Below, one piece after another: positions 4,385 through 26,031 of a DNA stretch of 29,342 nt. Location: NCBI GenBank assembly GCA_023515795.1, contig JALGPX010000103.1, positions 1 to 29,342 on the forward strand. Direction: 5' to 3'. This DNA is from Amoeboaphelidium occidentale (Eukaryota; Aphelidiomycota; Aphelidea). The first letter of the stretch is position 1. Each line of letters starts with the position of its first letter. Both the position numbers and the translations under genes were made by a program. The notes below the pieces were generated by a model. The model made no database searches and had not been told where the DNA came from. It worked only from the letters and a program-made list of their open reading frames with translations.

Positions 4385-4477
4385 ATGTTTGTGCACAATG
4401 ATCATAGTGTACTTTTTATTGATACTGCAATTGTTTCAACTGGCCCTTCTGCAGCTGCCTCCTCCGCTATCTGTTGA
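4385..4477 (+). other. Possible overlapping upstream ORF of the large surface-protein gene
   Basis: An ATG at 4385 lies 13 nt before the presumed start of the surface-protein gene and in another frame. It has a good context (A at -3) and reads 30 codons before TGA at 4475-4477, overlapping the signal-peptide coding region. If the transcript starts upstream of 4385, this ORF would reduce initiation at 4398; if transcription starts between the two ATGs it is irrelevant. Confidence 0.3.
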
Positions 4478-7400
4478 AGTGAGCTTCGATGGTCCTGATG
4501 GTGCTCAGCCTTTGGACTATGTTCTTGTTGATGATACACTTTATGTTTTATACAGTGATGGAGAAGTGTATCGTTCTCAGACTGTTACTTCATTGTTATC
4601 CAACACCTCTTTTGCCTTGTTCAGACAGAGCTCAGGTGCTGCCACTGCTTTTGATGTTCATAGTGGCAAGATGGCAGTTGGTTTCAATGGGTATGTTGCA
4701 ATAACTGATATCTACTCTCAGAATGATATTCGTAATGTAACACTTGAGAGTTCTTCTACTGTTGCATGCATAAGACTTCATGGAGATAACTTATTTGTGT
4801 CGCAACTCACTGATATTAAAATCTATCAATACTCGGTGAGCTCAGGAACATTGATCAAGTCTTTCTCAGTTAATCCTGGAAGATCTACACTTGCGCTGAA
4901 GTTTGAGTTAGAAAGAAGTCGTAATCTGATATTTATTCATGGTGTTGCTGATGGACCTGATATGGTTAATAGTGTATTTACTTACGATTACAGCAATGGT
5001 GGCCTAATCGGACTAACTCAAGGAACATCTTTTAACAAAAGAATCTATCAGATTTATTTGGATCGTGGAACCAGTACTCTTTATGGTGCAACTGACGATA
5101 ATGGGATTAAGTCTGCAAGTTTGAATCCTCCTGTTTCTTCTGCCAACAACCTTGGTGGTGCTGGTACGACTTTTGTAGGTGTTGCAGCATCTTATAGTTT
5201 TATGGTTGCAATTACGGCTAGCGGTGTCGCTTATGCTTGGAATCCTACCGGAGTCCAGGTAATGCAAGTTAATACATACTCGACAACCGAAAAGTATTAC
5301 GCATTGAATGATGCGGCTAACTATAATTTAGCTGCTCTATTCACTAATAGGGCAGTCCAAATAGTTGGCAGCAAAATATTTATGATGTTCCCGGATAATC
5401 AGATAAGGCAAATATCAGGTCCGCTTGCTATTGACATGATCCCAGTTGGAATTTCCCAGGTGTATCCGTCGGTGCTATCAACAAGTGGCAGTAAGTTGTT
5501 ATAATTCTTGATTAACCATGTAGATGAATTGATCACATTTGAATTCTATCCGAATCCAAAAATTATTGCTGGAACTCTTCAAATTTCTATCGATGGGAAT
5601 GAATGCACCAGCGTTAACTTCAATATTCTTCTAAGAACAGCAACGTGTTACAGTCCAGCTGGGCTTGCTGCTTATGCTCCAGTTAATCTTCAATTCTCTG
5701 AATTGGGGTCTATCACAAAAACATTTCTAAGTTACAAAACGCCTACCGTTTTAAGCGTTTCTCCGCAGAATGGTTTAACTTCTGGTAATACAAATCTGAC
5801 TTTGCAAGCGAGTGATATTGGGTTGCTAACGGATGGGATCAGAGTTGAACTTCGCCAAGTTGCTCCCCCTTTCTTTGTGATGAATTGTCAGAGTGCTACA
5901 AGAGTAGATGCTTCAACAGTGACTTGTTTGACTCCTTCGGTCAATTATCCCGAAACTTTTAATGTTTATATTGAAGTTACATCCGGATCTTTGTCAAGGC
6001 GATCTTCCGATGTAATTCCTTTCACATTTGGACCCCCGAGCATCACTACCGTATTTCCATCGAATACTGCAGCTTCCATTGGTGGAGACTTACTGAACAT
6101 AACCGGTGCAAGTTTTGGTAGTTGTGGTGCTAACTGTCCCGAGATGCAAGTAACTATTGGAACATCTCCATGTCAGAGACCAAATGTTATTTCACACTCA
6201 CTGTTGCAATGCAGCGCACCACCTGGTGTTGGAAAAGATCTTCCGGTTACTTTCAGCATAAATGGAGTTTCTTCCACGCTGTCTAATGGATTCTCATATG
6301 CTAAACCCCAAATTACTAGCATAAATCCTCTGAAGAAATTAATTCAACCAGGAGACTGGATAGACATTTTCGGTGCAAACTTTGGTAATATTTGATCAGA
6401 ATTAGCTAATTGTAGGACCTTTTGATGCTGAAATGCCTACTGTATACTTTGCACCATCATCCGGAGACACCTGGTTAACATGTAATCAAGTTCAAAGAAA
6501 CTATGACTCTCAAGTCCGATGCCAACTGAATGCACTAGTACCAGGAAGTTATTCTGTGTATGTGTCAGTTGGAGGCCAAGTTTCCGCTTCAGAAAGTTCG
6601 GTTTTCATGAGCATGTTTCCGAACAGAGCTCCTGTTGCGAACAATGTTACTGCTTTGGGATATCAGAACGATGATTCTGTTATAATACAGTTTGACGCAA
6701 CAGACCCGGATGAAGACAACGTCAGATACATGGTGGAATCCCTCCCTAAGAGAGGAAAGTTGTATGAGTACTCGCCAAATACTGTGAAGGGTCCAGAAAT
6801 TCTGGGTCCTCGAGAAGTTCCAGGCAATTCTGTCGTCTACACACCACAAAGAAATTATAACGGAGGGGATGGCTTTTCATACAAGGCCCGAGATCAACAG
6901 CCGCTGTTTTCTGAGCCAGTATTGGCAGAAATTCATATAGCTTTCGTTAATCAACCTCCTTACTTGGATCAAACTGAAATCACCGTTCTTGGTATGGAAG
7001 ATGCTGTGTCGGATTTCCTAGTGTATGCAAATGATATCGATGATTATCTTTTGACTTGCTTTCTCACTTCTGTTACTTCTGTCGGAAATCTCACTTGGGA
7101 GGGCGCAGTGATTACATCAGAGATGCTTCCATATAATCTAACCAACCCAGGTACTATGTATCTGTTTGGTACCGTTACGTATGTTCCAAAGCCTCTTACT
7201 GATGGAAACAATGTCGATAGCTTTACGTACAATTGTATGGACTCTGCTGGTCAGACAATGCTAAGCGACGTGACAGTCAAAATCAATTTGGCAAGTGTCA
7301 ACCATGCACCCACTGCTGCTCAAATGGAAGTAGAGCTTCCTCAAGTAGGCGAAGGAGAGTCGGGGTTTATTGTGATTGTGTTCGAGGGAGCTGATGTGGA

Positions 7401-10257
7401 CGGAGAAAGCCTAACATATGTAGTCAAATCTTTACCGACCAATGGAGTTTTGTACTCTCTGACAAAAAGTGGTGTGAAATCGTTCCCTGTTGCTGAAGGA
7501 CAAGAGTTTCCTCCGACTGTTAACCAGAATGTCAGGTTTGAACCAAATACGAACTTCCATGGTACGGACTCCTTTATTTACTCAGCTATTGACGGCGCTC
7601 TTTCATTGAGCAATGACGCCACGGTTACTATCAACGTCACACCGGTCAACCAAAGACCTACTATGGTTAGTCCCACATCTAAGGTTGCGTGTGATGAGAG
7701 TGCTTCTGTCGATTTCTCGTTGACGGCGACAGATGTGGAGAACGATGAAATGTCATTTTCGATTCTTGAACTGCCTGTCAAGGGAGTTCTTTTTGATCAA
7801 AGCGGTACAGAAATTACTTTTGTTGGCCAAATACTTGGAAAGTCTTCCAATGAGATCCTAATTACTTACACGCCAAGTGAAGGTTACGGTCTCAATTATG
7901 ATTCTTTTAAGTGGACGGCAACTGACAGTCAGGGTTTGTCATTTAAAACGACTGCAACGGTGACTTTTGATGTGAACCCCGTAAATCATGCTCCTATTGC
8001 TCAAAATTCGACTGCATCTACAGTCGAAGACGCTGGTGTTATAATCACATTGAGAGCTGATGATCAAGATTTGAAGTATGCACAAAAACAAGAAGAACTA
8101 ACATACATAATCAAGGAAGTTCCAAAGAGTGGATCTTTAACTGAAGTTGACCCAGTGACGGGTTCAAGCACGCAGTCTTCAATCGGAAAAAACTCTTTCG
8201 TTGATTCTTCGACGATTTATTACACACCTGCTGCAGATTTCAACGGTGTTGACGAGATATGGTTTGTTGTGAGAGATGCTGCGGGTAGCGAAAGTGGGAT
8301 GGCAAAGGTTGATATAACAGTTTCTTCTATTAATGATCTTCCTGAATTATTCCCAAAACAGATTTCATTAGTGATCAAACCTGATACTGACATTTTGGAA
8401 TTAAGAGCTACAGTCGAGGATAAAGATCTGAATTCTCCGTACGTAATCAGTTTTAATGATCCGCCTACTAGGGGCTTGTGGTACACTTCTCCTGATAGCG
8501 ATAAGCCATTAAGTTTTGGGCCTGATGAAATAATTACTACTATCGAGAATTCTTCTTTTACGCTTTATGTCAAGCATGATGGAAGAATGGGCGGCACGCC
8601 TTATACAACTGCATCCATTGCTGTTACAGATGCTTTGGGTGGCCGCTCTTCGTCTCTAGCTAAGGTTGAAATCACAGTTGAATGTCCTCCTACATTGTAC
8701 ATCAACGTGTTCAACACCGAAAACCCTTCTGTTTGCACTACATGTCCTGTAGGCGGAGTATGCTCTCCTTCAGGTGCTTTCCTTCCTTTTAATCAAGCAG
8801 GCTATTATCAAGTATCTACCACAGTGTTTCTTCCATGTGAGCCATCGTCGGCATGTAAAGAAGGAACGCCAAGACAAGGAGTTTTATTGGAATTCACGTC
8901 ATCTGAAAGTGTATGTGCTAGCGGCTACAATGGAACAAGATGTGGTGAATGCACTCAAGGATATTACAGGGGTGGATCGTACTGCCAAAAGTGTCCGGAA
9001 AACTTGAATCCATTTGTTCTGGCTTTGATCATTTTTGTTGTCATTATTGCTGCTTTGGCTGCCATCAATTTTATCAGGAAAGTGGACGTCGGTTTTGTTG
9101 GCGTATTCATTAATTTTGTTCAAACCGTTTCTATCTTGCAAGAGTTTGGTATTGAATGGCCTATCAACTTGACTTCTTTCTTTCGCGCATTATCTATTCT
9201 GAACTTGAACATTGAGATAACAAGTCCAGAGTGCTTTGTTGGCAAAAGCGATGATGCTTATGAGCTTAAATACTATGGAATGATGAGTTTGCCTTTGATA
9301 GTACTAGGAATTTGTATACTCTTGGTCCTTTGCCATTATTTGATATCGAAATTCAATACTTCGATTCTGAAACGGGTACCTGAGAAACATGACTTCAACA
9401 AAGTCTGTATTAAGAAATCCGTCTTGTTGAATAATCCATTACAATCCAATAATGGGCTAGAGAAGGGCGAAGAAAATATGGAAGACTATGCTAACTTGAA
9501 TCCTGCGATGATTCCGTTTTACGGATCCATGGCAGCGGTATACATTCTTTTTTTAAAGATCTATTACCTCGCTGTCACTACCACAACACTCAAATTATTT
9601 GATTGCACAACGAGACAGGATGGTAAATCTTATTTTGATGCCGTTCCTTCAAGATTATGCTATGAAGAATGGTGGCAAAGGCTTCTTCCTTTCTCGATCT
9701 TTGGTATAGTTTGTTATGTGGTTGGCATTCCCCTTCTAATATTTACGTTGCACTATTACAAGATGAAGATCGATCCTAATGAGAAAACCAGTTTTGTTCA
9801 GAGACTTGTTCTTTATGCTACGTACGAAAAGAAACAGCAATACAAAAAGGAACACGGGTATTGGGATGTCGTTTTGTTAGCGAGAAAGTTTGCTGTTGTT
9901 GTCAGCCAGCTGTTCTTCACAGCATACATCAGTGTTCAAGTCATCTTTCTTTTAATGGTATTCAACGCTTTCACTATTCAACACGTTGATGCAAAGCCGT
10001 ACGTTATTTCGAGTCTGAACAAGTTGGAAACTGCATGTATGTTTGGAATCAACTTTGTAATGTTGTCTGGCATGTTATTTTATGTCAACAATCTGAATCC
10101 TGTGATTAATGAAGAACTTTTGGGTGCGTTTGTTATAGCTGCTATAGCCATATGCATTTCATCTGTGATTCTTCTCTTTCTTCATTACACACATGCTCCT
10201 ATGGTTGAGTTTATATTTGGAAAGTCAAAAGATAACAATGAAGAAAAATTTCAATAG
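4398..10257 (+). CDS. Giant surface protein: TIG domains, cadherin/Big_9-like repeats, Cys-rich stalk, multi-pass membrane domain
   Basis: Three exons, 4398-5490, 5524-6384 and 6416-10257, are joined over introns of 33 nt and 31 nt to give 1931 residues. A signal peptide (MIIVYFLLILQLFQLALLQL) precedes about 330 residues that look like a beta-propeller. TIG/IPT-like domains follow (about 350-715; repeated GFSYAKPQITSINPL-type blocks with paired Cys). Next are six cadherin/Big_9-like repeats (about 721-1405), each opening with N-x-x-P and carrying Y-x-P...G-x-D-x-F-x-Y. A Cys-rich segment (about 1407-1513) with CxxCPxGGxC and GTRCGECTQGYYRGG comes before about eight membrane helices (about 1518-1908) and a short cytoplasmic tail. 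The FVQTVSILQEF...WP...SPEC block is typical of Cys-rich/TRP-like multi-pass proteins of many protists. It is probably an adhesion or sensory receptor; the ligand is unknown. The start at 4398 is the first ATG in frame with the signal peptide. The stop lies 9 nt from the convergent FAP1 stop. Confidence 0.85.
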
Positions 10258-14879: not shown

Positions 14880-15041
14880 GTGTCTGTGTCGTGTCACAGT
14901 TTTGACATTGTACCGCCTTGGCGTTTCACAACTATCAAATGTGTCTAGCATTGTGATTCCGATTGGATGGTCAGAATGTCCCACAACAACTAACAGCGGC
15001 ATAAAAGCAGCACAGACACATGTCTGAATTTTTAAAAAAAA
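14880..15041 (+). promoter_or_regulatory. Promoter of the first repeat-protein gene, homologous to that of the second
   Basis: This stretch aligns with 15782-15942 upstream of the paralogue. Shared blocks include TTTTGA-x-(A/T)TTGTACC, (G/A)CGTTT, GTGATT-x2-GATTGG, and CATAAAAG followed by AGCACAGA and TGTCTGA. CATAAAAG (15000-15007) begins exactly 42 nt before the ATG, as in the paralogue. A TATA-type element here would put the transcription start only about 5-15 nt before the ATG. An A-run just precedes the ATG. Confidence 0.7.
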
Positions 15042-15575
15042 ATGCAGCTAACTTCTTTTGTGTTCTGTCTTGTAGGGTTATTTGAAACTTTGGTAAATGC
15101 AAACGTCATTGGATTGCCGAAGTATTCATATTCTCCTCCTCCAGCTCCTCCACAAACGACGCTTTACATTTCAACTTATCGTCTTCCAGTTTCAACTATC
15201 AGGACTTCAATTGGACCACAACCAACAAATGTCATTCCGATCTATCGCCCTCCTTCTTCAACTATCAGGACTTCAATTGGACCACAACCAACAAATGTCA
15301 TTCCGATCTATCGCCCTCCTTCTTCAACTATCAGAACTTTAATTGGACCACAACCAACAAATGTCATTCCGATCTATCGCCCTCCTTCTTCAACTATCAG
15401 GACTTCAATTGGACCACAACCAACAAATGTCATTCCGATCTATCGCCCTCCTTCTTCAACTATCAGGACTTCAATTGGACCACAACCAACAAAAGCTGCT
15501 CCAACTGCAACCTTAAAGCCTTCTGTTGGACCACAAACAACAACCATAGGGCCCATCTATCTTTTTCCAAATTAA
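15042..15575 (+). CDS. Secreted Pro/Thr/Ser-rich repeat protein, short paralogue
   Basis: This gene has 177 residues and no intron. A signal peptide (MQLTSFVFCLVGLFETLVNA, probable cut before NVIG) is followed by a Pro-rich stretch. Four complete near-identical 22-residue units and a fifth partial one follow, each containing TSIGPQPTNVIPIYRPPS, then a degenerate end (SVGPQTTTIGPIYLFPN). The only cysteine is in the signal peptide, so the mature protein has no disulfides. Pro, Ser, Thr and Ile dominate, suggesting an extended and possibly O-glycosylated rod. It has no recognisable domain. The signal peptide, repeat register and promoter match the next gene, so the two are paralogues. Likely roles are wall, coat or adhesive component; this is inference from composition. 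The copies are almost identical at synonymous sites, so the array is recent. AATAAA at 15592 is the likely poly(A) signal. Confidence 0.8.
   Translation: MQLTSFVFCLVGLFETLVNANVIGLPKYSYSPPPAPPQTTLYISTYRLPVSTIRTSIGPQPTNVIPIYRPPSSTIRTSIGPQPTNVIPIYRPPSSTIRTLIGPQPTNVIPIYRPPSSTIRTSIGPQPTNVIPIYRPPSSTIRTSIGPQPTKAAPTATLKPSVGPQTTTIGPIYLFPN
15192..15491 (+). repeat. Tandem 66-bp coding repeats, four full copies plus one partial
   Basis: Units start at 15192, 15258, 15324 and 15390, with a partial fifth from 15456 that diverges after about 36 bp. Each unit begins TCAACTATCAGRACTT. The third copy differs by two substitutions near its start, one of them changing Ser to Leu; the others look identical. All units keep the reading frame. 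Confidence 0.95.
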
Positions 15576-15591
15576 ACGGTTTATGCGTCCG

Positions 15592-15597
15592 AATAAA
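15592..15597 (+). terminator. Polyadenylation signal of the short repeat-protein gene
   Basis: AATAAA lies 17 nt after the TAA stop, and similar A-rich copies follow within 20 nt. This fits the short 3' ends seen throughout the window. Confidence 0.6.
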
Positions 15598-15781
15598 ATT
15601 GAATAAAAGAATAAATAATGTAGAAAAATTTTATTTGCTCAGTTGTTATGTTATCCTTTTGCTAAAACTACGTTATGAACTGTCATCAGAACAATTAACG
15701 CTCGATACTCACTGCGGTAGTAACAAAGTTAAAATCATTGCCTCAGAAATGCTCGTAATCATCACTGTCGTATTTTTGCGT
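15598..15781. other. Spacer between the paralogous repeat-protein genes
   Basis: A short open frame crosses this AT-rich spacer on the plus strand, but it begins without ATG, has no protein-like pattern and runs into the next promoter. I treat it as non-coding. Confidence 0.5.
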
Positions 15782-15942
15782 AGAAATCATGTACAACATC
15801 ATGTTTTGAATTTGTACCACTGTGACGTTTTGAAACTTATGTTTTCATTGCAATCGTGATTGAGATTGGCCCAGATCAAGGTTGCACGGTACAAGAGTAG
15901 CATAAAAGTAGCACAGATGTCTGACCACAGTGTTTTCAAAAC
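15782..15942 (+). promoter_or_regulatory. Promoter of the long repeat-protein gene, homologous to that of the first
   Basis: CATAAAAG at 15901-15908 begins 42 nt before the ATG. It is followed by TAGCACAGATGTCTGA, the same order of blocks as upstream of the short paralogue except for a deletion of about five bases. Upstream, TTTTGAATTTGTACC, GACGTTTT and GTGATTGAGATTGG also align with the paralogue. The similarity covers about 150 bp of non-coding DNA. Confidence 0.7.
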
Positions 15943-18087
15943 ATGAAAATATCTTCTTACGTGTTTGGTTGTGTGGTAATTTTAGAAACTTTGGTAAGCG
16001 CAAACTATCCATGGCCAAGGAACCCACATCGTCCGCCTCCACATCAAGTATCATCCGTCCTACCGAAATCAACGAGCATTACACCAATCTACCCTGTTCC
16101 AACCTCCTCAGCTAAGTCTACTGCTGGACCAAAGTCAACAAGCATTACTCCTATTTACCCTCTTCCAACCTCCTCAGCTAAGTCAACAGCAGGACCAAAA
16201 TCAACGAGCATTACTCCTATTTACCCTCTTCCAACCTCTACTGCTGGACCAAAGACTAAAAGTGTGACTCCTATCTATCCGGTTCCAACCTCCTCAGCTA
16301 AGTCTACTGCTGGACCAAAGTCAACAAGCATTACTCCTATTTACCCTCTTCCAACCTCCTCAGCTAAGTCAACAGCAGGACCAAAATCAACGAGCATTAC
16401 TCCTATTTACCCTCTTCCAACCTCTACTGCTGGACCAAAGACTAAAAGTGTGACTCCTATCTATCCGGTTCCAACCTCCTCAGCTAAGTCTACTGCTGGA
16501 CCAAAGTCAACAAGCATTACTCCTATTTACCCTGTTCCAACCTCTACTGCTGGACCAAAGACTAAAAGTGTGACTCCTACTTACCCGGTTCCAACTTCAA
16601 CTGCTGGACCAAAGTCAACAAGCATTACTCCTATTTACCCTGTTCCAACCTCCTCAGCTAAGTCTACTGCTGGACCAAAGTCAACAAGCATTACTCCTAT
16701 TTACCCTCTTCCAACCTCCTCAGCTAAGTCAACAGCAGGACCAAAATCAACGAGCATTACTCCTATTTACCCTGTTCCTACCTCTACTGCTGGACCAAAG
16801 ACTAAAAGTGTGACTCCGATCTATCCTGTTCCTACCTCCTCAGTTAAGTCTACAGCTGGACCAAAATCAACCAGCATTACTCCTATTTACCCTGTTCCTA
16901 CCTCTACTGCTGGACCAAAGACTAAAAGTGTGACTCCTATTTACCCGGTTCCAACTTCAACTGCTGGACCAAAGTCAACAAGCATTACTCCTATTTACCC
17001 TCTTCCAACCTCCTCAGCTAAGTCAACAGCAGGACCAAAATCAACGAGCATTACTCCTATTTACCCTGTTCCTACCTCTACTGCTGGACCAAAGACTAAA
17101 AGTGTGACTCCTATTTACCCGGTTCCAACTTCAACTGCTGGACCAAAGTCAACAAGCATTACTCCTATTTACCCTGTTCCAACCTCTACTGCTGGACCAA
17201 ATACTAAAAGTGTGACTCCTATCTATCCGGTTCCAACCTCCTCAGCTAAGTCAACAGCAGGACCAAAATCAACGAGCATTACTCCTATTTACCCTGTTCC
17301 TACCTCTACTGCTGGACCAAAGACTAAAAGTGTGACTCCTATTTACCCGGTTCCAACTTCAACTGCTGGACCAAAGTCAACGAGCATTACTCCTATTTAC
17401 CCTCTTCCAACCTCTACTGCTGGACCAAAGACTAAAAGTGTGACTCCTATTTATCCGGTTCCAACTTCAACCAGAAGCCGGAGAAGAACACGTCGCCCAA
17501 GGACTAGGTATCCAAGAACAAATACTGTTCGTTATCCTTCTGGTGCCCCAACAATTGCTCCACCCATTGCTCATGTATATGAAGAAATTCCAAACATGCC
17601 TGCTCAAACTCAGGCTCCACAACCTGGAGAAAGAAGCAATGATCAGTCAAATACAGCACCTGATGGAAACTCTAATCAATATCACATTCCACCAGCATAC
17701 AGACAAGAACAGCAACAACAAGGCAATGACCAAGGACAGGACTATGATGATGATTACACAGGCGCTGGCAGATACAATTCTGTTGACTATCACCGATACT
17801 CAGCCGCTTGTAACTTGACAGTGTACAACTCAACAGACTCACTACCGCAGAATTGCACAACAGCTTTAGGTTCTAACAGTACTACTACCGGAATCCAAAC
17901 TTCGACTCAATTACCGTATCAAGACCAAATGCACAGACCATACTTGGATGCACTCAGAACATCAACAGTATCAGCAATTCCAAGCACAGCTACTTCATCA
18001 ATCGTGTACATGACTTCGTATCCAACGTCTTCAACAACTCTCAGTGTAATACCTGTCACAACTTCAGAAGCAGCAACTGTTTACTAA
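15943..18087 (+). CDS. Secreted Pro/Thr/Ser-rich repeat protein, long paralogue with distinct C-terminal region
   Basis: This gene has 714 residues and no intron. A signal peptide (MKISSYVFGCVVILETLVSA, probable cut before NYPW) is followed by 24 tandem units at residues 43-510, then an Arg-rich segment at 511-525 (RSRRRTRRPRTRYPR), a Gln/Asn/Asp-rich middle (EQQQQGNDQGQDYDDDYTG) and a Thr/Ser-rich tail to residue 714. The units share a (S/T)xS(I/V)TPIYP(V/L)PTS core with linkers of two lengths. The mature protein has two cysteines, in ACNLT and QNCTT, close together in the C-terminal region and near several N-glycosylation sequons (NLT, NST, NCT, NST). There is no transmembrane helix or clear GPI signal. 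The Arg-rich segment is a candidate Kex2/furin-type processing site. The likely role is a secreted structural or surface-coat protein; no known family is recognised. Confidence 0.8.
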   Translation: MKISSYVFGCVVILETLVSANYPWPRNPHRPPPHQVSSVLPKSTSITPIYPVPTSSAKSTAGPKSTSITPIYPLPTSSAKSTAGPKSTSITPIYPLPTSTAGPKTKSVTPIYPVPTSSAKSTAGPKSTSITPIYPLPTSSAKSTAGPKSTSITPIYPLPTSTAGPKTKSVTPIYPVPTSSAKSTAGPKSTSITPIYPVPTSTAGPKTKSVTPTYPVPTSTAGPKSTSITPIYPVPTSSAKSTAGPKSTSITPIYPLPTSSAKSTAGPKSTSITPIYPVPTSTAGPKTKSVTPIYPVPTSSVKSTAGPKSTSITPIYPVPTSTAGPKTKSVTPIYPVPTSTAGPKSTSITPIYPLPTSSAKSTAGPKSTSITPIYPVPTSTAGPKTKSVTPIYPVPTSTAGPKSTSITPIYPVPTSTAGPNTKSVTPIYPVPTSSAKSTAGPKSTSITPIYPVPTSTAGPKTKSVTPIYPVPTSTAGPKSTSITPIYPLPTSTAGPKTKSVTPIYPVPTSTRSRRRTRRPRTRYPRTNTVRYPSGAPTIAPPIAHVYEEIPNMPAQTQAPQPGERSNDQSNTAPDGNSNQYHIPPAYRQEQQQQGNDQGQDYDDDYTGAGRYNSVDYHRYSAACNLTVYNSTDSLPQNCTTALGSNSTTTGIQTSTQLPYQDQMHRPYLDALRTSTVSAIPSTATSSIVYMTSYPTSSTTLSVIPVTTSEAATVY
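16069..17472 (+). repeat. Tandem coding array of 54-bp and 66-bp modules (24 units) with 186-bp higher-order repeats
   Basis: Each unit carries STSITPIYP (15 units) or TKSVTPxYP (9 units) and ends in a short linker (TSTAGPK; 18-residue unit) or a long linker (TSSAKSTAGPK; 22-residue unit). A TKSVTP unit always follows a short linker and never follows another TKSVTP unit. A 66+66+54 bp block repeats with a 186-bp period starting at 16111, 16297 and 16483, with the first two copies appearing identical. Variants include Thr for Ile (TPTYP), Val for Ala (SSVK) and Asn for Lys (GPN). Confidence 0.95.
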
Positions 18088-18118: not shown

Positions 18119-18124
18119 AATAAA
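18119..18124 (+). terminator. Polyadenylation signal of the long repeat-protein gene
   Basis: AATAAA lies about 30 nt after the TAA stop at 18085-18087 and is followed by AATAATATTT. Confidence 0.55.
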
Positions 18125-20992: not shown

Positions 20993-22681
20993 CTATTTCT
21001 TTCTGGATCTGCATATTCCATCAACCCACACAGACTCCACGCTGACATCAGTGAGATAGCAAGCCGTTTCTTGCTGGTTCGGGTCAGCTTTCCATATTGG
21101 TTTGTCCAAAATCACAAAATCTGCCTTGAAACCAGCGGATAACATTCCCAAGGAATCTTCCTCGCCTGCAGCAAAAGCAGCGCCAGTAGTATACATATCA
21201 AACGCCTCTTTGAAAGTTAATCTCTCTTCAGGATGATATGTTCTAAAGATTGAAGTATACAAGCCTTTGAAAGGATCAGGATCTTCCACTGGAGCATCAG
21301 ATCCAGCAGAAACATGGATTCCTTCATTGAGAAGAGTCTTCCAACAATAAGAATAGCGACTCCTGTCATTATTTTTCCCTAGGCGATCCTCGCACCATAA
21401 GGAATCTGTTGTAACAAAAGATGGCTGAACATTTGCAATTACACCTTGTTCTCGCATCTTCCTAAACAGATCCTTGCCCAGAACTTGACAATGCGTTAAT
21501 ATCGGTCTTTCTTCTGGTTTAACTCCGGCTTCCTTTAAGGCTTCGAGAACAACATTTGTAGCCTCATCGCCAATAACATGAATCTCAAGTCGAAAGCCGT
21601 GTGTTGAAGCGAACTTAAACTTTTGAACCAACTCTTCCTTCGATGATATTAAAATTCCGTGATTATGCTTGCAATCAGTATAAGGTTCTCTCAGAGCTGC
21701 AGTCCTACCTCCCAGACTTCCATCAGCGAATACTTTTAATCGATGACAACTGACTAAACCAAATTGATCATTTGCCACTGGGACATCTTCTGCATCTGAA
21801 GGATGTTCGATTTCATCCAAAGGCACTGTAAGCAAAACGCGCTGCTTAACTTTGCCATCATTAATTAACTGCTTATATATCAGCCATGCATCATTGAAGT
21901 CATTCGTCTGCACTGAAGTTATTCCTTTTGATAAACAAAGATCCAATCCTTCAACATACTGTTCCTGAAGTACAGAATCATCCAAATAACCATTAAGTAA
22001 ACTTTTTAAGTGAAAAAGCGACGTTTCTTTTAATATTCCATTGTTCACATCAACGAAATGTGGTTTACTTTGAAGCAAGTCTCGTAACTTTGCGACGGCG
22101 CGATTCCTATGTGGTGCTTCAAACAAGAACATTAAATGCTTGGGAAATCGTGTACCATCCAAAGGGATTAGCCCTAAGAGCATCAACATAAGAGAATTCG
22201 CAACGCATAAATGATAGCAGTTACGGTAAAGCACCAAAGGAATATTGACTTCCCGCAAACCGTTCTCAACCATTTCCAAAGTCAAAACATCAGCCAAGCC
22301 CAACTTATCCTGATCCCAGCCACCACATACGAGAAATTTAAGAGTATCCTTACGACTATAATAAAACGATTTAACTTTTGCAAAGATATCATCAACACTT
22401 AAGCAATCTTTAAGGTCCAGAAAGTTATCTTGACCCTGAAGAGATTCCCCCAACATTTGAATATGAATATGAGCATCAATTATACCCGGAATGATGTGTG
22501 ATCTGTTTTGAAGGTCAATAATCTCAAGTGAGCTAAGTAGCTCAGGCTGAATAGAATTACTACCAACAGAACCTTCACCCAAACTGTGAACCAAACCATC
22601 CTTAATAATCATCCAATTATAAAGCTTCCCATTCTTTCCATAAACTATCGTGTTCTCAAACAGGTAACCAGAAGATCCCAT
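20993..22681 (-). CDS. YtcJ-type metal-dependent amidohydrolase
   Basis: This single exon encodes 562 residues from the ATG at 22681. Amidohydrolase_3/YtcJ landmarks are all in place: DAHIHI (H71, H73), the LKVFADGSLGGRTAAL block with K316, LEIHVIGDEA (H368), LTHCQVL (H397) and SAGSDAPVEDPDPF (D462). The C-terminal beta-sandwich ends in LGMLSAGFKADFVILDK, the usual motif that returns the chain to the N-terminal sandwich. These enzymes hydrolyse amide or ester bonds at a metal centre; bacterial relatives act on N-substituted formamides or are uncharacterised, and fungi carry several. The substrate cannot be predicted. An insertion of about 25 residues near 178-205 precedes the usual GILKE block. 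There is no signal peptide, so it is probably cytosolic. The promoter is shared, in 46 bp, with the FtsX-like gene. Confidence 0.9.
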   Translation of the reverse strand: MGSSGYLFENTIVYGKNGKLYNWMIIKDGLVHSLGEGSVGSNSIQPELLSSLEIIDLQNRSHIIPGIIDAHIHIQMLGESLQGQDNFLDLKDCLSVDDIFAKVKSFYYSRKDTLKFLVCGGWDQDKLGLADVLTLEMVENGLREVNIPLVLYRNCYHLCVANSLMLMLLGLIPLDGTRFPKHLMFLFEAPHRNRAVAKLRDLLQSKPHFVDVNNGILKETSLFHLKSLLNGYLDDSVLQEQYVEGLDLCLSKGITSVQTNDFNDAWLIYKQLINDGKVKQRVLLTVPLDEIEHPSDAEDVPVANDQFGLVSCHRLKVFADGSLGGRTAALREPYTDCKHNHGILISSKEELVQKFKFASTHGFRLEIHVIGDEATNVVLEALKEAGVKPEERPILTHCQVLGKDLFRKMREQGVIANVQPSFVTTDSLWCEDRLGKNNDRSRYSYCWKTLLNEGIHVSAGSDAPVEDPDPFKGLYTSIFRTYHPEERLTFKEAFDMYTTGAAFAAGEEDSLGMLSAGFKADFVILDKPIWKADPNQQETACYLTDVSVESVWVDGICRSRKK

Positions 22682-22727: not shown

Positions 22728-25700
22728 ATGGACAAGTTCAAACAGAAAGCGTGGAGTTCCCTGAGCCTATTCTACGCCCAATTGCTGCTTAGTGCCAAAC
22801 AGGCCATAAGGAATGCAGCAAAGAATAAGTGTCAATACTTTCTTGGTTCGAGCAGTGTTTTACTTGTGACGGTTACGATAACTGTTTTACTAACTGCGCT
22901 CAGTTACTCCCCTTCAGTCTTCTTCTCTTTGGCTGAGAGCTCCTCTGGACAGATCGATTTGGCATTGTCTTCTTCAAATGGTGAACCTCTGAATTTTACG
23001 ATGGTGTCTGAAGTTATGGCTGCGTCTCATAATAATGCACTCGGTTTCAGTCGATCTCTATTCACTGGTCGCATGCAATACGGACAAGTTACAACTTATA
23101 AAGCGTCAACATGCATTGGCTACGATGCTACGACTGGCAGGAATAAGCTTTTTTATACAGGACCAAAGTCCAGGAACGAGTTTGCGCAGTATGGCATTAA
23201 TGATCGTCTCGGACTGCTACTTCAGAATGTGTGTTTGAATACGACAGATAATTCTACACAACTGAGTTCATTTGGAAATTCATTGGCTTGCATGACAGGT
23301 TTATGCAGAGGAAGGCCATTGAAAACAAACGTTTATGTCATCGACAGCAACAGAGAGCGTGATCTTAAAATTGGAAGAGCTTGGCAATTTCCACCACTCA
23401 AGTTTTCATACACTGGGCCTAATACTCCTGCTGTTCCAATTTACATTCAGCAGAATGTCGCAAGAAGTTTGAATGTAGGTTCTGGCGACTACTTGAACAT
23501 CAATTTCGATAACTTTCCTAATTCATTTCCAGTTCTTTATCAATTTATTGCAGACGCCGTGACTAATACTACGGGAGCGCTTGGTACTAATTACAATTTG
23601 GAGGTCTTATTGCAAAGCGTGAATTTGGTTGCTAAAGTTGAAATAGTTGTCCAAGGAACTTATGGTAAAACAGATGCAAATGAAAACGCTGCTGTATTTT
23701 TTGAGCTTGATTCTTTTCTTACTTCTGTGGCGTTGAACGTGCATCCATATGTATTATCTCTTTACGATCCTCTTGTAGTGACAGTTCAGAATACGAGCTC
23801 TGCTTTGGTTAATGAGAGTATTACAAACATTTTGTTTTCTTGTGGCTCAAACAGACTTGAATGTTATTTGTCTGGATTAGGCTTTGATGATGTTACACAA
23901 AAGCTAATCGGTTGGTCCTCTGCCATTGTTTTTGATTTGGGTTTCTCTGCACTAAATCAAGATTTACCAGTTTTGGATGAATTAGCTGAAACTCAATTTT
24001 TCTCTGCGTTTCTGAACTTGATTTTCATGATGGTTGTTTTGATTATGGGTGGAATGAGTGTCTTTTTGATTTATTCGTTATTGATGGTGTCCGTGGAGAA
24101 TGCCCAATTTGAACTTGGTGTTTTCAGAATGATTGGAATGGTCAAATGGAAACTGATTGTTCTTATCCTTGTGCAAGGTCTTAGTTACAGTTTACCTGCT
24201 TGCTTAGTAGGATTGATAGTCGGTCAAGTGGCTTGGTTTATCTTGTACAAATACCTTGCAGAATTGCTTCAAACTGAGATTCAAGGTCTTTTAACTCCAA
24301 TTAGCATATTGGTTGCATTACTTCTTGGACTCATCATACCAACGCTAGGTAAGAAATGCCTGTAAAACTCGCTTCATATCTTTAGCCAGTATCTTTCCAG
24401 TCAAACAGGCATTATCCGAAAATCTGCATGATGCATTGGACACCAGGCGATCTAAAACAAAACCAGTAGTGATAACAGTTGAACGTGCTCGCGGACAAAC
24501 TATCTCTTATACTATGCTATTTAGTGGATCTATAATGGTTGTTCTGGGATTTGTCATTTATTATTTTCTACCTCTTGCATTGGTTTACGAAAACATATCA
24601 CTATTATTCAATATTTTCCTTTTACTACTTCTAGGAATGATGCTTGGTCTTGTGCTTCTATCGTTGAATTTGGAGCCTTTGTTGACAAGAGCTCTGGTGT
24701 TCATCGGTTTCTTCCTGTTGCAATACTTTGAAATACCTTCAATGTCTCTGTTGGTAAGAAAGAACTTGTTAGCACACAAAATTAGGAATCGAAAGACGTT
24801 CATTCTTTACGCTCTGTCTCTTGGTTTCATAATATTCCTTACGGTTGGAATAAGAGTTCAGTTGCAGTCTCTGATTTTCTTAACTCGAAGAGATTTTGCA
24901 GGTGAGATCAGAGTACAAGCCGGAGGCTGGAACCAACAAACTATGAAATACGCTTATCCACAGCTACGTTCTGCTTTAACTGAAAACCCTGATGTTGCTT
25001 TCTTTTCCTATAAGACATTTGATATATCAACAATACGAGGTCTAGAAGATAATGGAGTCGAAAACTTTGGCAGAATTCAATCTTATTCAAATTTCTTGTC
25101 TGCAGTGTCGCCAAATCACTTTGATGTCTTTGATCCTTCGTTTTTTGTTCTTAGCAGCGCTTACTATGATGAGAACGCCCGCTCCTTTTCTGAAGGTGTT
25201 TATACCATTAAAGGAAGCAGTAGTGTTTACTTGGGCTCTATCTATCAGACTCAGTTGAATATTCTATCATTCTTTGATGATTTTGTGATTTACAGTGTTC
25301 GAGGTATCGGTGGTGGAAGATCAAATACAACAAGAACAAGGATTACGGCTAACGCATTTCTTGCATCATCGCCCGGACTATTTTTCTCTGGGTATCCTAC
25401 ATCAAGAAGGCAAGACATTGTTATGGCTTTACCGCTATTGTATGAGCTAACTAATAACTCATTTTCGGTACCAACAGCTATTCCAATGCAGCGAATTTAC
25501 ATCAGATTAATGCCAAACTTACCTCAGCAGCGCATACAAGCTACAGTAGATGAGCTTACTAAGATTTTACAGTTTGAAACAGTTTCCTATGTTGAAGATG
25601 AACTACAAACTATTTACACAGCATCGAATACTCTGAGTTGGTTGTTTCAAATCATTACTGTACTGATTCTTTGTGTTGCATTCTTTTCATTGAATTCCTC

Positions 25701-26031
25701 TATGTTTACTAATATCATGGAACAATCCAAAGAAATTGGCGTTTTACTGTCTCTTGGTGCTTCTCACGCAACTGTGTATCGATTATTTGCATACGAAGCC
25801 TTCTTTTTAGTATTCTCTGGTTCTCTGATGGGATTTGCTATAGGATGTATTATGGGATGGTCAATGTCTGCACAAAGAAGTGTAGTTACACAAGTCCCAA
25901 TTGAGTTCCTATTCCCCTGGGACATTTTCCTTCTGACTTGTGCATGTTCAATTGTTTGCGCGATAGTTTCCACAGTTATTCCATTGAAAAGACTCTTTAC
26001 TGGACGAAAAATTGTAAATTTATTGCGCTAA
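22728..26031 (+). CDS. Large membrane protein with two FtsX-like permease domains
   Basis: Exons 22728-24348 and 24386-26031 join over a 37-nt phase-1 intron (24349-24385) to give 1088 residues. The splice restores IIPTLASIFPVKQALSENLH, a typical FtsX boundary motif (P..AL..NL). A first helix at about 38-62 is followed by a large non-membrane domain (about 63-420) with several N-glycosylation sequons, then three helices with FELGVFRMIGMVKWKL, the FtsX core (E.G..+..G). The second half has further helices, a second soluble domain and a C-terminal FtsX unit with QSKEIGVLLSLGASHATVYRLFAYEA. This is the MacB/LolC-like duplicated layout, best known from bacterial ABC exporters and mechanotransmitters. 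No ATP-binding partner is in the window, and none of its motifs is in this protein. Location and substrate are unknown; an endomembrane or surface role is likely. Confidence 0.85.
26019..26024 (-). terminator. Candidate polyadenylation signal for the small secreted-peptide gene
   Basis: AATAAA on the minus strand lies 43 nt after the stop of the small peptide ORF. It falls inside the last codons of the FtsX-like gene, so use of it would make the two transcripts overlap. Confidence 0.35.

Follow-up and report, generated by a model that had tools for sequence, protein, structure and literature searches.

A tandem pair of genes for predicted secreted repeat proteins with periodic tyrosine in the aphelid Amoeboaphelidium occidentale

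Introduction

Mussel foot protein fp-1 is a basic secreted protein composed of tandem repeats in which tyrosine, lysine and proline recur periodically. Here we describe two neighbouring genes, A and B, which encode predicted secreted repeat proteins with periodic tyrosine and lie on contig JALGPX010000103.1 of the aphelid Amoeboaphelidium occidentale. This stretch, in the following called the window, was analysed over its full length of 29,342 nt and represents one complete contig (GC ~40%) of an 11.3-Mb assembly of 204 contigs. The two genes proved to be duplicates of each other, and we tentatively regard their products as structural proteins of a wall or of an adhesive surrounding it.

Several described systems resemble the pair in part. 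Mussel foot proteins are cross-linked via 3,4-dihydroxyphenylalanine (DOPA; PMC11608171). Protein B shares with them the periodic tyrosine with lysine and proline and the basic character (24 anchors, isoelectric point (pI) of the array 10.2), A carries arginine in place of lysine, and the tyrosinase-rich genome of the organism is a further likeness. In contrast, unit length, sequence and lineage differ, and DOPA in A and B is putative. Plant-type extensins and related Tyr-Pro wall proteins are likewise secreted, proline-rich repeat proteins containing tyrosine, often of narrow distribution (PMC3149072, PMC8160292), and extensins are defined by repeated Ser-Pro3-5 together with Tyr-X-Tyr (PMC4769139, PMC8160292). 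By eye, neither motif is repeated in the arrays of A and B; a single YSYSPPP is found in A just after the signal peptide (residues 28-34) and none in B. Extensins furthermore belong to another group of organisms, and no sequence match between them and A or B was found.

The cyst-germination-specific acidic repeat (Car) proteins of Phytophthora, which are mucin-like, are repeat proteins of an organism with zoospores and cysts and have a unit of Thr, Pro and Tyr (PMC2654667), but this unit is the acidic octapeptide TTYAPTEE as opposed to the basic 18- and 22-mers of A and B, and no homology was found. The microsporidian polar tube proteins PTP1 and PTP2 are encoded by neighbouring genes, one product being proline-rich and the other basic and lysine-rich (PMC7040029). 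They rely on cysteines for disulphide assembly, whereas mature A has no cysteine and mature B two, and no sequence match was obtained (Pfam for A and B, a large protein set for B). The transcriptome of the aphelid Paraphelidium likewise yielded no spore wall or polar tube proteins of the kind specific to microsporidia (PMC6299283). Finally, tyrosinase-domain genes are also expanded elsewhere on the fungal side, namely as tyrosinase-like CBM18 proteins of chytrids (PMC3569864); their counterparts here are candidate partner enzymes and not A or B themselves. In the literature searched we found no report on such proteins in aphelids or on the protein part of aphelid cysts, and no relevant paper joining aphelids and tyrosinase. 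A and B are a new orphan instance of a familiar kind of protein, with a unit of their own.

A duplicated gene pair

The layout of the pair and of its duplicated 5' portion is as follows.

15042..15575, + strand: gene A, open reading frame (ORF) of 177 aa; predicted secreted repeat protein, basic (mature pI 11.0) and rich in Pro, Thr, Ile and Ser
15943..18087, + strand: gene B, ORF of 714 aa; predicted secreted repeat protein, mature pI 10.0
14899..15104, + strand: copy A of the duplicated segment, with ~143 bp of upstream DNA and the codons of the signal peptide; aligns locally with copy B
15803..16005, + strand: copy B of the duplicated segment, with ~140 bp of upstream DNA and the codons of the signal peptide; aligns locally with copy A
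15000..15007, + strand: TATA-like box CATAAAAG of gene A, 42 nt 5' of the ATG
15901..15908, + strand: TATA-like box CATAAAAG of gene B, 42 nt 5' of the ATG
15042..15101, + strand: signal peptide of A, first 20 residues with probable cleavage at VNA/N, read from sequence; hydrophobic window 2.36 (Kyte-Doolittle, KD)
15943..16002, + strand: signal peptide of B, first 20 residues with probable cleavage at VSA/N, read from sequence; hydrophobic window KD 2.31

An earlier note on this DNA had taken A and B for a duplicated gene, and this was borne out, as upstream DNA, signal-peptide DNA and unit register all align. In a comparison of 200 bp the upstream regions gave a score of 36, which lies above random expectation (maximum 33 and mean 18.6 in 1000 dinucleotide shuffles) and above the values for 1095 further 200-bp segments from both strands of the window (maximum 28); the alignment begins at about -143 in A and -140 in B. 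The signal-peptide DNA scored 46 against a shuffle maximum of 30, and both parts form one alignment from about -143 to codon 21 with a score of 68, a sum without a control of its own. The similarity of the two signal peptides was equally confirmed: both motifs described before are present, and an ungapped comparison gives 11 identities over 21 residues and 45 over 63 nt. The octamer CATAAAAG stands exactly 42 nt before each ATG, as claimed, and occurs three times in the window (+ strand 15000 and 15901, - strand 3265).

The duplicated segment stops after the signal peptide, the 3' parts aligning at chance level (score 24, shuffle maximum 28). A decayed copy of the C-terminal tail of B downstream of A was considered and rejected (best tblastn E only 0.13). 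The repeat units of A and B, compared in register, agree in 8 of 22 residues and reach a BLOSUM score of 50, a value attained in 2 of 20000 cases by shuffled units placed in whichever rotation suited them best (mean 14.3); at the nucleotide level 36 of 66 positions are identical in register, and none of the other 65 rotations exceeds 27. Since the units are much more alike within each gene than between the genes, both arrays have turned over since the split of A and B. The proposed growth of one array from 5 to 24 units could not be upheld, there being neither polarity nor an outgroup to give the change a direction. The pair represents a clean, small case of a duplicated promoter and signal peptide with separate turnover of the arrays.

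Repeat arrays and encoded proteins

The remaining features of the two genes are listed below; tandem repeat finding is abbreviated as TRF.

15191..15493, + strand: array of A, 66-nt (22-aa) units, 4.6 copies, 98% matches (TRF)
16084..17472, + strand: array of B, 24 PIY/PTY anchors, spacings 22 (10) and 18 (13) (anchor spacing, TRF)
17473..17517, + strand: polybasic stretch RSRRRTRRPRTRYPR of B
17473..18084, + strand: C-terminal region of B, 204 aa, not in A, no homologue found
17812..17883, + strand: segment of B with four N-glycosylation sequons and Cys 638; the other tail cysteine, 623, lies just before it
15592..15597, + strand: AATAAA, candidate poly(A) signal of A, read from sequence
18119..18124, + strand: AATAAA, candidate poly(A) signal of B, read from sequence

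The unit had been described before as 22 residues long with threonine at position 8, which is correct for A and for B only in part. In B, 10 of the 23 spacings amount to 22 residues and the other 13 to 18, in the order LLkLLkLksLLkLksLkskLksk, and the threonine at position 8 is missing from the nine k units, which read GPKTKSVTPIY or GPNTKSVTPIY with one GPKTKSVTPTY. The 18-mers lack a four-residue piece that is SAKS in most 22-mers. Each unit of B contains one tyrosine and one or two lysines, the tyrosine being kept across all 24 units, and 8 distinct protein units are found among 23. The five units ascribed to A correspond to five PIY motifs, while the array proper comprises 4.6 copies of 66 nt; the last PIY spacing is 39 and spans a degenerate unit. 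Arginine is regular in A where B has lysine. Proline makes up 23% of the array of A and 20% of that of B, threonine, serine and proline together ~59% of the latter, and the array pI values are 11.8 and 10.2. Both arrays are low-complexity, GC-skewed repeats.

Secretion was read from the hydrophobic N-termini with a VxA/N cut site in both proteins. For the composition, the first 20 residues of A and the first 21 of B were removed, which leaves 157 residues for mature A and 693 for mature B. Mature A contains no cysteine and mature B only Cys 623 and Cys 638, both in its tail of 204 residues, which in addition carries RSRRRTRRPRTRYPR, an acidic DYDDDY and four N-glycosylation sequons; the stretch RSRRRTRR precedes the non-repetitive part. 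An AlphaFold2 single-sequence model of B had a mean predicted local distance difference test (pLDDT) value of 31.7, with 705 of 714 residues below 50; this fits disorder, although models built from a single sequence are often poor.

The earlier statement that the unit belongs to no described family stands for the searches made. No Pfam family was reported for A or B at E<=10, under filters that drop most matches above 0.1. Among ~5.8 billion proteins, in a search which requires shared short words and which was run with B as query, neither full-length B (7993 candidates sharing most words scored) nor its C-terminal 215 residues (1449 candidates scored) gave a match at E<=0.001. A protein search with A and B across the 11.3-Mb genome found no third member.

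B looks coding and constrained as judged by its codons: the ten 22-aa units differ by 223 synonymous against 33 non-synonymous codon-pair differences, and all 23 units over their 18 shared codons by 1117 against 534, where a random change would be synonymous in 28% of cases. An intron at a GTAAG-like site at the end of the signal peptide of B was considered and is regarded as unlikely, as no branch-point- or acceptor-like sequence is visible nearby by eye and the frame is open.

Promoter and its distribution

The earlier note had further suggested that the pair may belong to a lineage-specific family with a core promoter of its own. A wider family of this kind was not supported, since the protein searches returned the pair only and GCATAAAAGNAGCACAG occurs exactly at these two genes alone; a genome-wide family or promoter class was consequently rejected. 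A DNA search with the 5' region of B returned only itself at E<=1; as even the copy in front of gene A escaped it, other diverged copies are possible. With up to two mismatches GCATAAAAGNAGCACAG was located at 29 places in the genome, the two exact ones being the pair; 20 of the 27 non-exact places are the single word GCATAAAAGTTCCACAG, part of a dispersed repeat, and 7 others remain. As located with this two-mismatch pattern, the repeat lies at 20 places in the genome; some copies follow one another in tandem at distances of 300-1005 nt, others sit close to the end of a contig. At its loci (L011, L013-L015, L018, L019, L021, L022, L024-L028) there are short open frames only, as seen in the three loci translated.

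A [CT]ATAAA motif at -60 to -25 was found at 3 of 44 ORF starts, two of which are those of A and B; the 44 starts were taken from the window and other examined loci and are uncurated, with internal starts included. On this count A and B are marked as probable TATA-type genes within a mostly TATA-less set, and as paralogues they stand for one event. Both genes keep ATGTCTGA in the interval from the TATA-like box to the true ATG (15020 and 15917), and in B the upstream frame with ATGTCTGA ends in a TGA overlapping the start codon. It may constitute an upstream ORF or may be located before the start of transcription.

Chitin synthases, tyrosinases and glycosylation in the genome

Chitin_synth_2 had 8 matches in the genome, including three strong proteins which also have a CHS4 domain, and the wall or coat role suggested in the earlier note is plausible with these three. 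The tyrosinase family PF00264 matched at 12 places, all above the curated cut-off and corresponding by position to about ten genes, on contigs C11, C177, C131, C48, C172, C114 and C97, partly in tandem clusters; none of 14 prokaryote control genomes matched, so the search had no positive control. By eye, all eight tyrosinase genes read (C131, two on C177, three on C11, C48 and C172) start with hydrophobic, signal-like segments, and several have Pro/Thr/Ser-rich tails or tails resembling those for a glycosylphosphatidylinositol (GPI) anchor. Hydrophobic GPI-like tails were seen by eye in the C177 pair, in a C11 gene whose sequence is interrupted by an N and was read in two parts, and in a C11 neighbour without Pfam match. 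Pfam identified six of seven scanned proteins as tyrosinases, the seventh being this neighbour, and CBM18 was not reported in any of the seven.

Aligned with the whole tail of a C11 tyrosinase, the one whose Tyr/Pro unit is compared below, B scored 229, and 300 residue shuffles reached no more than 209. This result was not counted, residue shuffling being unfit for low-complexity repeats; the alignment of A with the tail was ordinary, with 37 of 300 shuffles as high. PMT had one match in the genome. No animal-type peroxidase matched, and the controls gave no match either, so that no conclusion is drawn.

Proposed role and alternatives

Aphelids adjoin the fungi and infect algae via chitin-bearing cysts, and chitin is recorded for the infective cysts of Paraphelidium (PMC6299283). 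The cross-linking of tyrosine-rich proteins by tyrosinase is established chemistry (PMC11608171). The reading we favour, although we hold it with slightly less than even confidence, is that A and B are tandem-duplicated genes for secreted, disordered proteins with a structural role in the chitinous wall of a cyst, spore or cell, or in an adhesive surrounding it. Secretion is predicted from the N-termini; the wall location and the cross-linking are what we infer beyond it. The signal peptide would export both proteins from the cell, where the basic array of Pro, Thr and Ser, in which tyrosine recurs at intervals of 18 or 22 residues and lysine (B) or arginine (A) is regular, would form an extended chain whose positive charge could bind it to acidic wall polymers or to the host surface. 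The periodic tyrosine might then be oxidised by the tyrosinases of the organism and cross-linked with lysine or with chitosan amines. The polybasic stretch of B and its sequon-rich tail with two cysteines may act as an attachment or processing module which A does not have, and the shared TATA-like promoter would turn on both genes together at one stage.

A more specific version, in which co-expressed, lineage-specific Tyr/Lys/Pro repeat proteins are hardened into a cement or cyst wall by the expanded secreted and surface-anchored tyrosinases, appears to us rather improbable in its entirety. If true, a chemistry like that of mussel glue would exist on the fungal side of the tree, and the repeat-protein genes would be driven at one stage by a promoter of the TATA type, which is rare in the genome. 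The orphan secreted repeat pair and the roughly ten tyrosinase genes form a concrete, testable candidate for the gluing or hardening of cysts.

Several observations weigh against a structural, cross-linked role. The tyrosinases may serve melanin formation instead. In the upstream DNA examined, a [CT]ATAAAAG box is missing from all eight tyrosinase genes read, and co-regulation with them is for this reason not indicated. The Tyr/Pro unit in the tail of a C11 tyrosinase was rejected as a homologue of the 18-mers of B, as 1134 to 2020 of 10000 shuffles scored as high. Neither A nor B carries a GPI-like tail or a recognised chitin-binding domain, and one degenerate unit of A is without tyrosine. 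Furthermore, the codon differences between the two signal peptides are mostly non-synonymous (2 synonymous against 10), and the two 18-aa unit classes of B taken alone are without synonymous excess (20 against 26 and 3 against 3).

Among the rival explanations a mucin-like coat has to be taken most seriously and is possible, if doubtful: the Thr/Ser/Pro arrays would carry dense O-mannosyl glycans and cover cysts or germlings with a slime that protects and adheres, with tyrosine incidental and no covalent curing. The share of Thr, Ser and Pro in the array of B agrees with such a coat, the single PMT match keeps it open, and the Car proteins of Phytophthora are described secreted repeat coat proteins (PMC2654667). 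On the other hand, a tyrosine in all 24 units of B exceeds the need of a pure glycan carrier, the tyrosine-free unit of A notwithstanding, and the arrays are strongly basic. We consider it unlikely that A and B are secreted host-interaction proteins, effectors or adhesins, with fast-diversifying repeats and a processing site in the polybasic stretch of B that frees the C-terminal 190 residues. A secreted tandem duplicate without detected homologue, and RSRRRTRR ahead of the non-repetitive tail, would suit them, but the units are uniform instead of diversified (8 distinct among 23 in B, 98% matches in A), just two copies were found, and low complexity is more typical of structural proteins.

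Low-complexity, GC-skewed repeats could also be non-functional, satellite-like arrays that are open by chance. This is very improbable in view of the synonymous excess in the codon frame, the signal peptide and promoter retained in both copies, the candidate poly(A) signals and the open non-repeat tail of 204 codons. The period of 22 residues recalls folded solenoids of the leucine-rich repeat (LRR) type, and phmmer gave a weak match of B to the repeat region of a PDB 'Rab family protein' (whole-sequence E 1.4e-4) and to two further such entries, which we take to be bacterial Roco LRR proteins. The best single stretch, however, reached 11.3 bits with an i-Evalue of 0.86 and matched via its 'tpi/pl' composition, no Pfam LRR was reported at E<=10, and no structure was predicted for B. 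With no LRR profile match, a compositional PDB match and a model of B without a fold, an LRR fold for A and B was rejected and is given next to no weight.

Other genes of the window and the genome

Tubulin had three matches in the genome, one of them delta-tubulin-like by reading (Pfam: Tubulin only); as judged by its sequence, such a protein would suggest a flagellated stage. A beta-tubulin fragment compared with the PDB was uninformative as to taxonomy. Canonical eEF1A is not among the four PF03143 matches in the genome, which by reading are a mitochondrial EF-Tu, eRF3, an HBS1-like protein and a divergent GTPase; perhaps it is missing from the assembly or replaced by EFL.

In the window, a YtcJ-like amidohydrolase at 20993-22681 is 96% identical to a JGI metagenome protein (P0001). 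In a tree of 68 rows it groups with this protein, an ENA protein (P0002) and two proteins of Amoeboaphelidium protococcarum with support of 100/99; the other matches are archaeal, bacterial and protist. Together with the chitin synthases, this tree of a single gene makes an aphelid-like genome the best reading of the sequence. Two adjoining ORFs at 22728-26031 have FtsX-like permease domains, here in a eukaryote, and may together be a single gene that an intron or a frameshift interrupts. A large surface-protein gene extends over 4398-10257 in apparently three ORFs. It encodes TIG, bacterial-Ig and cadherin-like domains as well as C-terminal segments that are hydrophobic, and short introns perhaps split it.

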